This document shows positions 6,776 through 13,969 of a stretch of 31,408 bases of DNA, piece after piece. The notes beneath the pieces were generated by a model, which worked only from the letters and a program-made list of their open reading frames with translations, had not been told where the DNA came from and did no database searches. Numbering within the stretch: the first letter of the stretch is position 1; each line of letters begins with the position of its first letter. The stretch is from a virus, in IMG/VR virus record IMGVR_UViG_3300017917_001314, positions 1 through 31,408 of that record; one strand, given 5' to 3'. The position numbers and the translations under genes were made by a program.

Positions 6776-6796
6776 GCAGTCGGTTATATTTAAAAA
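6776..6796 (+). repeat. 21-bp direct repeat, right copy
   Basis: Second perfect copy of 6241-6261, starting 6 nt after the stop of the membrane-protein gene. The two copies are 535 bp apart and bracket exactly one gene, which suggests duplication by insertion or recombination of a cassette. Confidence 0.85.
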
Positions 6797-6859
6797 GATA
6801 TAAAGTAATTATACTGGAAGGTATTATACTTTAAAGCATATAAAGTAAAATAACGGACA

Positions 6860-7415: not shown

Positions 7416-7441
7416 CTATCTTATTTGCGCAATGCCTAATA

Positions 7442-7542
7442 TTTGCCGATATAGTCAAATAGGCGAAGTAATAAACTGCAATAAATACCGATAAACGCTA
7501 CTTTATGCAAAAAAAGATACTTAACTTCGGTATAAAACCGAA
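7442..7542 (+). ncRNA. Two hairpins opening the non-coding region
   Basis: TTTGCC (7442-7447) pairs with GGCGAA (7462-7467) with one G-U, and TTCGGT (7526-7531) pairs perfectly with ACCGAA (7537-7542) over a 5-nt loop. They lie in the 532-bp gap (7416-7947) that holds no convincing reading frame. Confidence 0.4.
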
Positions 7543-7553
7543 CAAAGAAGCAA

Positions 7554-7679
7554 AAAACTACAGTCATAAACAAAAACACCATTCGGGTTTAAAGGTAACT
7601 ATACACCATGCAGTACTATAGGTACATAAGAAAACCTTAGAAGTATAGTCGTTGTGTGGGTGACACAAACTGTAGTTTT
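7554..7679 (+). ncRNA. Structured RNA closed by an 11-bp perfect helix
   Basis: AAAACTACAGT (7554-7564) is the exact reverse complement of ACTGTAGTTTT (7669-7679). Inside are ACTATAC (7598-7604) with GTATAGT (7643-7649) and the hairpin TTGTGT (7652-7657) with ACACAA (7663-7668), which together make a multi-branch junction. It abuts the tRNA-like element at 7680. I recognise no known RNA family; hammerhead core motifs are absent. Confidence 0.55.
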
Positions 7680-7791
7680 GCACTCAAGTGGCGGAATTGG
7701 TTAGACGTAAGAGTTCTATGATAGGAAAGTCAAAACCTTAGATACTCTGGAGATTGACAACTCATACAGGTTCGAATCCTGTCCTGAGTGC
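7680..7791 (+). tRNA. tRNA-Leu-like element with oversized centre
   Basis: GCACTCA (7680-7686) pairs with TGAGTGC (7785-7791). A perfect T-arm ACAGG-TTCGAAT-CCTGT (7766-7782) and a D-arm-like TGGCGGAATTGGTTAGACG, as in leucine tRNAs, are present. The centre is about 58 nt rather than 30-35 and has no standard 5-bp/7-nt anticodon arm. Instead GAGTT (7711-7715) and GTCAA (7729-7733) match a continuous TTGACAACTC (7754-7763), with 13 nt bulged. Two extra bases lie on each side between acceptor and arms. This may be a degenerate tRNA, one with an insertion, or a tRNA mimic. Confidence 0.5.
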
Positions 7792-7795
7792 ACTT

Positions 7796-7834
7796 CTGGT
7801 GATGTTGAAATAGATAGCATCTATTTTAAACCAG
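7796..7834 (+). ncRNA. Hairpin after the tRNA-like element
   Basis: AAATAGAT (7808-7815) pairs perfectly with ATCTATTT (7819-7826) over a 3-nt loop, inside an outer CTGGT/ACCAG stem (7796-7800, 7830-7834). No T-run follows, so it is not a standard terminator. It continues the chain of stems in this non-coding region. Confidence 0.5.
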
Positions 7835-7859
7835 TGACAGCTTGGAAAGACAAGCAAAA

Positions 7860-7932
7860 TAGTCAAGTAGCATTAGAAGCAATGCACCATCTATAGTGTG
7901 GGAGATAATAGGGGCAGTACCTATCTTGACTA
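7860..7932 (+). ncRNA. Stem-loop directly upstream of the gene at 7948
   Basis: TAGTCAAG (7860-7867) pairs perfectly with CTTGACTA (7925-7932). Inside, ATAGG and CCTAT near 7909-7925 form a smaller hairpin. It ends 15 nt before the ATG at 7948 and could control its translation. Confidence 0.45.
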
Positions 7933-7947
7933 CTAAAATTAAAAATT

Positions 7948-8343
7948 ATGAAAGAACAATTATTTAGTATAGACTTCTTTGAGTTATCTTTTTTAGCAGA
8001 AGCATGTATACCACCAAGACCTATTGCAAGAATGCATTTTTGGCAACAATTGACAGATAAATATTGGCACCAAATGACAGAAAACAATAGGACTATTTTG
8101 TTTAATTGGTTACAAAGAAATTCTCACTATGAAGAGAGTTTGCATAATGAAGAAGAAACACAAATCTTCCATGCAAGGTTTGACCCTGATAATCAATACA
8201 CTGTACATACAAAGTATAAAAGAAAAAAAGAAAGCCATAGAGCTTTTAAAAGAAATGACAGGTATTATACAGCAAGGAACACATGGATAGATGAGAAATA
8301 CATTGTTTCTGTAGAAAAATTAATAATTGAAAAAGAATATTAA
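7948..8343 (+). CDS. Conserved hypothetical phage protein
   Basis: 131 residues. The start (FELSFLAEACIPPRPIARMHFWQQL, then KYWHQM) resembles a widespread phage protein of unknown function with the AEACIPPxPIAR motif, from memory. The C-terminal half is rich in charged and aromatic residues, fitting RNA or DNA contact. It is the first gene after the structured RNA stretch and leads a run of five genes spaced 2-3 nt apart. Confidence 0.6.
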   Translation: MKEQLFSIDFFELSFLAEACIPPRPIARMHFWQQLTDKYWHQMTENNRTILFNWLQRNSHYEESLHNEEETQIFHARFDPDNQYTVHTKYKRKKESHRAFKRNDRYYTARNTWIDEKYIVSVEKLIIEKEY

Positions 8344-12750: not shown

Positions 12751-13341
12751 TTAAAATTTAGTGACTAATTTAGAAGCTGTCCTTGCAATAGGTTTTCTGA
12801 ACAATAACATTAGTAAAATCAATATCCACCAGTAAAGGTTATCCCTTTGCCTTTTATACTTATCCGCCTTTTCTTTTTCTACTGTGTAGTCTTTGTAAGC
12901 GGCTATATACTCTTTATGTTTATCCTTTACATCTTGAGTCAACTCATCAATAATAACTGTCAAGGAATCCTTTACAATCTGAAGTTTACGTGTATTCTCT
13001 ACAGTCTTTGTAATATACTTGTATTTGATAACAGGTACTTTCTTTTCCTGAAATATGGTAACTATCTCACGTTTCACAGAATCAGAAACATCGCTTCCTA
13101 ATAAACTGTCAAGTATTGAGTGTAGATATACAAACTCCATCTCATAAGCTTGTAAAGTGGTCGAATCTACCACTATAACCGTATCAATGGTTTCCTTTAT
13201 AGGAAATACCTCTTCGCATTTCTTTGCTGCTAATGTTGGCTTCTTATCGAAGAATTTGTCAAGTTTTTTTGGTAATAAGCATGATTGTAAAATGATGCAA
13301 AATACCCCGAAAATGACGTATTTAATTAATTTGTAATTCAT
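12751..13341 (-). CDS. Predicted unimolecular spanin (lipoprotein with C-terminal anchor)
   Basis: 196 residues. The N-terminus (KYVIFGVFCIILQSC) is a lipoprotein signal with a lipobox-like LQSC, Cys near residue 21. Residues about 60-165 are long charged helices likely to form a coiled coil (EYIAAYKDYTVEKEKADKYK). A transmembrane segment follows at about 168-182 (LYWWILILLMLLF) with a basic tail. Outer-membrane lipid anchor plus inner-membrane anchor across the periplasm is the layout of one-piece spanins such as T1 gp11. It overlaps a holin-like gene by 1 nt. Family assignment is by architecture, not similarity. Confidence 0.6.
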   Translation of the reverse strand: MNYKLIKYVIFGVFCIILQSCLLPKKLDKFFDKKPTLAAKKCEEVFPIKETIDTVIVVDSTTLQAYEMEFVYLHSILDSLLGSDVSDSVKREIVTIFQEKKVPVIKYKYITKTVENTRKLQIVKDSLTVIIDELTQDVKDKHKEYIAAYKDYTVEKEKADKYKRQRDNLYWWILILLMLLFRKPIARTASKLVTKF

Positions 13342-13574
13342 TATGTAAAGATTGCGAGTGCTATACCTATGCTACCTCCGGCTATGGTATATAGCGCATC
13401 AAATATATCAAACTTGCCGTAATCGTACCAATCTTTTACTTCTTTAAAAGTAGCCGCGACAACAACCGTACCTATCACCCACATCCAATGCGCATGAATA
13501 GCCTCAAAGAATATAAGTGCAACGAAGCTAATAAAGCAACCAGCACCTAAATGCATCTGTCTATCAATCCTCAT
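13341..13574 (-). CDS. Small membrane protein, holin-like or VanZ-like
   Basis: I choose the ATG at 13574 (MRIDRQMHLGAGCF), giving 77 residues and an 11-nt overlap with the upstream gene; a longer start at 13661 would run through that gene. Two or three hydrophobic segments (CFISFVALIFFEAIHA, WMWVIGTVVVAATF, IAGGSIGIALAIF) separated by KEVKDWYDYGKFDIFDALYT. The D-x-x-D-x-x-YT-AGG pattern recalls small membrane proteins that often sit beside phage lysis genes. Holin is a guess from position. Confidence 0.55.
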   Translation of the reverse strand: MRIDRQMHLGAGCFISFVALIFFEAIHAHWMWVIGTVVVAATFKEVKDWYDYGKFDIFDALYTIAGGSIGIALAIFT

Positions 13575-13800
13575 TTTTATGGTTTTTATCCTGTTTTGTA
13601 CTACCGAAATAAAAGCCAACAACCCCGGCCAATGCACCGCCATAAATAAAGCCAGCCACAATATTAACTATATCATGATTTTGCTCAGGTATGGCTTTGA
13701 CTTGTAATAGATAAACCAAACCAAAACAACCTAAAACGATGATAATAGCAAGGCTGTTTCTAATATCTGTTTTCGTTAATCGTTTCAACCATTCTGGCAT
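13564..13800 (-). CDS. Putative holin, 78 aa
   Basis: Two transmembrane segments, about 17-33 (AIIIVLGCFGLVYLLQV) and 45-66 (VNIVAGFIYGGALAGVVGFYFG), a short basic N-terminus and a polar, charged C-terminus. Size and topology fit class II holins. It resembles small proteins in the lysis cassettes of Bacteroidetes phages, from memory. It starts 1 nt after the preceding stop codon. Confidence 0.55.
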   Translation of the reverse strand: MPEWLKRLTKTDIRNSLAIIIVLGCFGLVYLLQVKAIPEQNHDIVNIVAGFIYGGALAGVVGFYFGSTKQDKNHKNED

Positions 13801-13801
13801 A

Positions 13802-13969
13802 TTATTTCTTTTTACTTGTTATTGATTTTATTACTTTACAGGCTGTTGGTAGGTTACGCAGGATAATGGTAATGCTTGCCCCTGTTGACAAAACGAAAGT
13901 GAAATTATCCTTTGTTATCAATGCTGCAAAGCTAAGCAGCCACACAACCCCTAATTCAATCTTTGCCAT
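13802..13969 (-). CDS. Small membrane protein, 55 aa
   Basis: Starts MAKIELGVVWLLSFAALI, one or two hydrophobic segments with a short polar turn (TKDNFTF) and a basic tail ending TSKKK. It overlaps the upstream gene by 14 nt and is followed 1 nt later by the holin candidate, so it fills the gap exactly. With two helices and a basic tail it could itself be a holin or antiholin. Confidence 0.5.
   Translation of the reverse strand: MAKIELGVVWLLSFAALITKDNFTFVLSTGASITIILRNLPTACKVIKSITSKKK

Follow-up and report, generated by a model that had tools for sequence, protein, structure and literature searches.

Tandem tRNA-shaped modules upstream of a small phage gene and an apparent superfamily of tRNA-like RNAs with replaced anticodon domains

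A structured intergenic region in a phage operon

The window is a stretch of viral DNA of 31,408 nt (IMG/VR record IMGVR_UViG_3300017917_001314), and the region considered here (positions 7416-7947) ends directly before a small protein gene for which no relatives were found. No plus-strand ORF of at least 60 aa is present in these 532 nt; the sole overlapping ORF of that size encodes 74 aa on the minus strand (7863-8087). A sequence-only reading had described the region as non-coding, structured DNA with a tRNA-like core, and this description is supported: all the stems that it named were found by direct reading of the sequence (Table 1), and the core element covaries strongly. The folding energy of the 532-nt RNA was calculated to be -124.3 kcal/mol, compared with -108.3 +/- 5.4 kcal/mol in shuffles (z -2.96, 0/100). 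ARAGORN in its default mode called no tRNA in the region and no tRNA array in the window, and no terminator-like site was found between 7416 and 7947. Direct searches of INPHARED phages and IMG/VR with the whole 532 nt or its core returned no match.

Table 1. Positions of the features in and next to the region (window numbering).
Feature	Position	Strand	Sequence or remark	Basis
Upstream leader	7442-7542	+	two small hairpins	partly shared with L016, L019
Upstream hairpin stem	7442-7447/7462-7467	+		direct sequence
Second small upstream hairpin stem	7526-7530/7538-7542	+		direct sequence
11-bp helix	7554-7564/7669-7679	+		direct sequence
tRNA-like element 1	7558-7675	+		direct sequence, T-arm/acceptor shuffle test
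Element 1 acceptor			CTACAGT/ACTGTAG, extended outward to 11 bp (7554-7679)	
Element 1 anticodon-position stem	7598-7604/7643-7649	+	ACTATAC/GTATAGT	
Element 1 core inside that stem	7618-7622 ... 7635-7641	+	ATAGG ... CCTTAGA	
Element 1 T-arm	7652-7668	+	TTGTG-TGGGTGA-CACAA, no linker to acceptor	
Acceptor and T-arm of tRNA-like core	within 7680-7791	+		direct sequence
tRNA-like element 2	7682-7790	+	class II (Leu-like), non-decoding	Rfam, ARAGORN, homologs, covariation
Element 2 acceptor			ACTCAAG/CCTGAGT, one A.C mismatch; outward to 7680-7792	
Element 2 D-arm			GGCGGAATTGGTTAGACG	
Element 2 AC stem	7710-7714/7744-7748	+		
Element 2 AGG/CCT hairpin	7723-7725/7736-7738	+		
Element 2 pseudoknot (kissing) helix	7729-7733/7754-7758	+	GTCAA/TTGAC	covariation
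Element 2 variable stem	7750-7752/7761-7763	+	GAG/CTC	
Element 2 T-arm	7766-7782	+		
Spacer hairpin, elements 2-3	7796-7834	+	AAATAGAT/ATCTATTT inside CTGGT/ACCAG	direct sequence
8-bp stem	7860-7867/7925-7932	+		direct sequence
tRNA-like element 3	7861-7932	+		shuffle test, ARAGORN mitochondrial mode
Element 3 acceptor			AGTCAAG/CTTGACT; discriminator A7932	
Element 3 D-arm-like hairpin	7870-7885	+		
Element 3 T-arm	7908-7924	+	ATAGG-GGCAGTA-CCTAT	
Downstream small protein gene	7948-8343	+	131 aa, no family; ATG 15 nt after element 3, reached through CTAAAATTAAAAATT-ATG	

The stems on either side of the core are real, and the tRNA shape of the two domains that they form had been missed. A strict scan for a 5-bp T-arm with a 7-nt loop, joined without linker to the 3' strand of a perfect 7-bp acceptor, found two units in the region (elements 1 and 3), against a shuffle mean of 0.0095 and with 0/2000 shuffles reaching two; with both strands scanned, the rest of the window gave three further matches. 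Element 3 was drawn as a 73-nt cloverleaf by the mitochondrial mode of ARAGORN, and elements 1 and 2 have the core ATAGG-N12-CCTTAGA in common. No homolog was found for element 1 or for the spacer hairpin. Elements 1 and 3 are recognised by shape, the shuffle test and partial sequence resemblance, and the covariation described below covers element 2. The domains do abut, as had been noted, but are better read as three tandem tRNA-like modules than as a single RNA. As judged from the sequence, each module keeps the acceptor, the T-arm and usually the D-arm of a Leu/Ser-type tRNA, and its anticodon and variable domain appears to be replaced.

Part of the leader (7466-7530) is common to the related phages L016 (88%) and L019 (80%), and among 60 loci of portal relatives the leader is present only in these two. 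At the homologous place, L016 (12300-12470, minus strand) and L019 (19290-19450, minus strand) have a different domain, closed by a 10-bp AAAGTTTACC/GGTAAACTTT stem and not recognisably tRNA-like. A non-coding stretch of the window at 6776-6850 (GCAGTCGGTTATATTTAAAAAGATATAAAGTAATTATAC...), perhaps a regulatory or origin element, also has a close match in both phages. The portal was not found in the 296 phylum genomes searched, and therefore no host is assigned to the window phage.

Fold and covariation of element 2

An Infernal search against Rfam, which the sequence-only reading had named as a check, gave a single match for the region, to tRNA (RF00005) at 7682-7790 with 30.2 bits (cut-off 29), so that element 2 alone among the three reaches the score of that family. 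Where RF00005 has a 7-nt loop with U33 and a free anticodon, element 2 has a 29-nt loop (27-29 nt across its family) engaged in a kissing helix. ARAGORN, when introns were allowed, drew a tRNA-Leu body, the anticodon arm of which contains a 22-nt insert. The kissing helix joins the remodelled anticodon arm to the variable loop; its pairs are kept in all homologs, with compensatory changes from GC to AU in one sequence and from UA to CG in two. Such a long, conserved and kissing-paired loop makes normal anticodon presentation impossible, indicating that element 2 is not a decoding tRNA.

Homologs of element 2 were found by pattern scans in viral contigs of IMG/VR, of which several are probably proviral, as well as in GTDB contigs of Bacteroides faecichinchillae JCM 17102 and B. 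acidifaciens DSM 15896. The alignment comprises seven distinct sequences including the window (an earlier count was made on six). In it, 97.1% of cells are paired and both-side changes occur at 16/31 pairs (0/500 shuffles); this signal was abolished by shifting the pairing partners along the alignment. None of the 14 acceptor columns is invariant, yet all seven acceptor pairs covary, showing selection on the acceptor fold and drift in its sequence. In the remodelled anticodon interior, 13/30 columns are invariant. Thus, the tRNA body and the remodelled domain are both under selection, and the covariation that had been proposed as a check proved strong for this element. The derived covariance model R1 describes a tRNA body with an AGG...CCTTRGAT hairpin kissing the variable loop, all of which was found, covarying, in element 2. 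R1 scored the window, which is in its training alignment, at 96.8 bits (E 5.5e-19), and true members, training sequences included, at 93-119 bits, against at most 57 bits for ordinary tRNAs. Scans of Bacteroidaceae and Bacteroidota detected the family in 2/301 (13 candidates scored per genome) and 1/395 species representatives, indicative of a phage-borne, patchy distribution. In the cases inspected, the element is codirectional with its neighbours and the next gene; the locus also contains an Erf gene in the window, L002 and L099.

These data bear on two readings of element 2 as a tRNA gene. The first takes the ARAGORN drawing literally, as a real tRNA-Leu(UAG) gene interrupted by a short intron immediately 5' of the anticodon loop, splicing of which would give a CUUAGAU loop; in most homologs, removal of 20-22 nt does leave the 7-nt loop CTTAGAT. 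However, the insert pairs with the variable loop and covaries with it, one homolog has CTTGGAT, which would alter the anticodon, the other superfamily members described below offer no such reading, and the insert is far below group I size without an Rfam intron match, which together make splicing highly improbable. The second is that the elements are decaying phage tRNA genes whose anticodon arm was lost or filled with junk. The bodies do resemble tRNA-Leu, some phages, such as L136, have such elements beside full tRNA arrays, and the T-loops of elements 1 and 3 are degenerate: TGGGTGA and GGCAGTA, respectively, are without the T54-A58 consensus. Decay is disfavoured for element 2 by the compensatory changes in every acceptor pair and the pseudoknot, and by a remodelled domain that is conserved from the window phage to Bacteroides phages; nor would decay produce the same 20-22 nt insertion complete with a covarying kissing helix. 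It is considered unlikely overall.

A wider set of tRNA-like elements and their relation to known RNAs

A scan of IMG/VR with the pattern AGTCAGGTGGC-N(64-94)-GGTTCGANTCCTGYCCTGACT matched at least 120 stretches, in which shared ends, AGTCAGG...CCTGACT, surround differing interiors; the pattern itself partly imposes the constancy of the ends, but not the diversity of the interiors. The matches listed comprise 111 distinct elements of about 80-190 nt in 87 interior clusters, and ARAGORN found a full-length tRNA in only 9 of these 111. Only 4 of 81 representatives have a 7-nt anticodon loop. The discriminator varies (A or G), several different elements occur in single phages, and Rfam sees the elements solely as weak tRNA matches. 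The superfamily has the T-arm and D-arm of element 2. The strict pattern is matched by neither element 2 nor element 3; the acceptor of element 3 is one compensatory pair off (G-C to A-T), and its 3' flank is similar to the 3' flanks of the superfamily. As judged from sequence, structure and homologs, the window modules probably belong to a large, apparently undescribed superfamily of phage tRNA-like RNAs. Pairing between the anticodon loop and the variable region was not significant over the 81 representatives (5 at p<0.05 with 4 expected; 25 at p<0.2 with 16 expected), and the kissing helix is hence claimed for the element 2 family only; in some other interior families the sequences are too few or too similar for strong covariation. 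No description of such elements was found in the open-access literature. In a large catalogue of structured RNAs from the human microbiome, ARAGORN was used to flag possible tRNAs (PMC8040213).

Several individual elements show unusual architectures. In the Bacteroides prophages L107 (11454-11587, minus strand) and L099 (6302-6421, minus strand), the anticodon stem of a tRNA body leads into an apparent second, circularly permuted tRNA body, which in L107 consists of a T-arm, a short acceptor and a D-arm and in L099 has a truncated D-arm. The same two prophages have at one locus the same tRNA body (L107:10537-10695 and L099:4411-4482, both minus strand); its anticodon arm measures about 85 nt in one, whereas the other has a short, near-normal loop, which reads as an anticodon domain swapped or lost in place. 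In a B. acidifaciens contig, a 163-nt element with a long inner hairpin (L135:804-966, minus strand) stands 15 nt before a small ORF and has a possible AGTCAGG/CCTGATT pairing to the variable region. The portal-related phages L033 and L048 contain a further element type, the hairpins of which covary (GTGG/CCAC vs CCGG/CCGG); its D-arm hairpin also occurs in an AGTCAGG-type element of L198. The isolated Bacteroides phage BS-TP2 (PQ571275) has two odd, unannotated tRNA-like elements, at 13260-13454 and 13732-13813 of its record.

The nearly constant inverted ends around differing interiors could also mark modules for recombination or mobility, in which AGTCAGG...CCTGACT would act as sites of exchange, reassorting interiors and small genes between phages. 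A second CCTGCAGCGGCTCAAAATTTATAATTATG copy was observed about 0.6 kb after the element in L048, and similarly in L006; these detached 3'-end copies directly precede another small gene and suggest a joint spread of the element and gene leaders. Such lone 3' halves would fit exchange. In the element 2 family, however, the acceptors differ completely and still pair, so that the fold is the kept feature, and no associated recombinase was found in a search that was not systematic. We regard exchange modules as improbable.

Comparison with established RNAs gave likenesses without identity. GOLLD and ROOL are defined as single large RNAs in a homo-oligomeric complex. The window RNA shares with them a phage origin, structure, an unassigned function and tRNA-like units, but its modules measure 70-150 nt rather than forming one RNA of several hundred nt, and the window has no tRNA island, near which ROOL and GOLLD occur (PMC12286853). 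No Rfam covariance model for GOLLD or ROOL was matched. The sequence-only reading had expected one large folded RNA and had mentioned GOLLD and ROOL, though it assigned no family; in such an RNA, the tRNA-like unit would form an inner domain. The abutting domains, the structure of the region as a whole and the tRNAs sometimes contained in GOLLD linkers (PMC12286853) are in line with that proposal; it is opposed by the lack of an Rfam match, by the homologs, which have element 2 alone without flanking domains, and by the same-leader relatives L016 and L019 with their different domain, and is very unlikely.

Bacterial Y RNAs (YrlA) contain tRNA-like modules and mimic tRNA outside translation. 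One L107/L099 element resembles them in setting a permuted tRNA body on a stem; in the present elements, the tRNA-like ends are free, unlike in YrlA. The tRNA cluster of phage T4 encodes small stable RNAs of unknown function beside its tRNAs (species 1/C and D RNA), which the present elements resemble by description. Among further candidates, tmRNA was rejected (none by ARAGORN; the only tmRNA-type Rfam match scored 19.7 bits against a cut-off of 65), as were a group I or group II intron-bearing tRNA (the insert has 20-22 nt, and Rfam scans showed no intron family) and Y RNA (no Rfam match in the window and ten related loci). Phage tRNA genes (RF00005) are alike in the class II Leu/Ser-like acceptor, D-arm and T-arm, with a weak Rfam tRNA score for the modules, and differ in that the modules here lack the 7-nt loop, have a replaced and pseudoknotted anticodon/variable domain and are intergenic before small genes. 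In mitochondria, tRNA punctuation sets mRNA ends (PMC4394434), and tRNA-shaped units between genes could do the same here; the present units are phage-borne and non-decoding, and their processing is inferred.

Placement before small genes and a proposed role

Among the matches listed with enough flank, an ATG-led ORF begins 7-44 nt downstream of 46/110 superfamily elements (42%), compared with 32/153 canonical tRNAs of these loci and with 24% at random positions; this statistic was devised after the pattern was seen. In the first set, a downstream ATG followed 16/36 elements and 18/107 canonical tRNAs; the 16 all belong to the 29 elements that lie outside a tRNA array. An upstream ORF stops within 60 nt of 53/107 elements among the matches listed. 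The 46 downstream proteins form 41 clusters with a median of 64 aa and are mostly products of unrelated small genes; the leaders before their AUGs are 52% A and show no Shine-Dalgarno-like motif. For over half of the elements, no AUG occurs inside 45 nt, and many of these stand in clusters.

Other RNA features recur in these neighbourhoods. A terminator-like hairpin was found in L002 (6810-6860, minus strand), L100 (9620-9660), L107, L099, L142 (3001-3065), L143 and L144, often about 10 nt 5' of a tRNA-like element in Bacteroides phages; it has the conserved loop (G/T)(T/C)(C/T)GTGA(A/G)(G/A)ATA followed by a T-run and is preceded by a TCGTGTTTTATTTTGTGTTTG-like stretch. In early regions of Bacteroides phages, Rfam matched a DUF2693-FD RNA (L142:2084-2132, 75.2 bits) and an RT-17 RNA (L100:10769-10845, 41.5 bits).

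The best explanation, to which we would give a probability of about 0.45 with its mechanism included, is that three tandem tRNA-shaped, non-decoding modules occupy the intergenic space of a phage operon and that such RNAs serve as processing punctuation. The features handled by processing enzymes are kept, the part read by the ribosome is lost, and the elements are placed before unrelated start codons, so that a processing or leader device is the simplest reading. We infer from these features that the operon is transcribed across the elements and that its transcript would fold the tRNA-shaped bodies; RNase P would then cut on the 5' side, and RNase Z or exonucleases on the 3' side, as expected from the shape. 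The downstream message would keep a short A-rich leader before its AUG, with a possible effect on translation, and the remodelled anticodon domain would bar the released RNA from translation and may have a second function of its own. Such a further role is likely, since this domain is conserved in the element 2 family and would drift if processing were the sole function. The T-loops of elements 1 and 3, which depart from the T54-A58 consensus, may make these two poor substrates for processing.

The main rival assigns the released RNAs a role in trans, as tRNA mimics or decoys binding host proteins that handle tRNA (synthetases, EF-Tu or defence nucleases that cut tRNA); an arms race would then have diversified the anticodon domain. 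The retention of elbow and acceptor beside a non-decoding, hypervariable anticodon domain, the presence of several elements per phage and the conserved internal sequence of the element 2 family are all compatible with it. Charging of Leu/Ser-like bodies would still be possible, since the anticodon is not read by Leu and Ser synthetases. However, a position just 5' of the AUGs of unrelated genes indicates a role in cis, and a discriminator of either A or G means that no single amino-acid identity is kept. A purely trans-acting role seems rather unlikely, if worth serious consideration. In a broader version of processing punctuation, phages would have a very large set of modular, non-decoding RNAs, each joining an unvarying tRNA body to an anticodon domain that can be swapped, which form early-gene leaders and combine processing with domain-specific trans jobs; this would constitute a categorically new RNA class, which is possible, and is put forward tentatively.

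To our knowledge, few tRNA-like RNAs outside translation exist in bacteria. The findings suggest an overlooked class of tRNA look-alikes that may serve to cut phage messages or to manage them instead of reading codons. Represented at least 120 times in public viral contigs and missed by default tRNA finders, such a class would alter the annotation of phage intergenic regions and would provide a natural tRNA scaffold with swappable domains. The related elements in BS-TP2 (PQ571275) and in prophage-type contigs of B. faecichinchillae and B. acidifaciens place experiments within reach, and the class would open to test how phage polycistronic messages without Shine-Dalgarno-like leaders are cut and translated.
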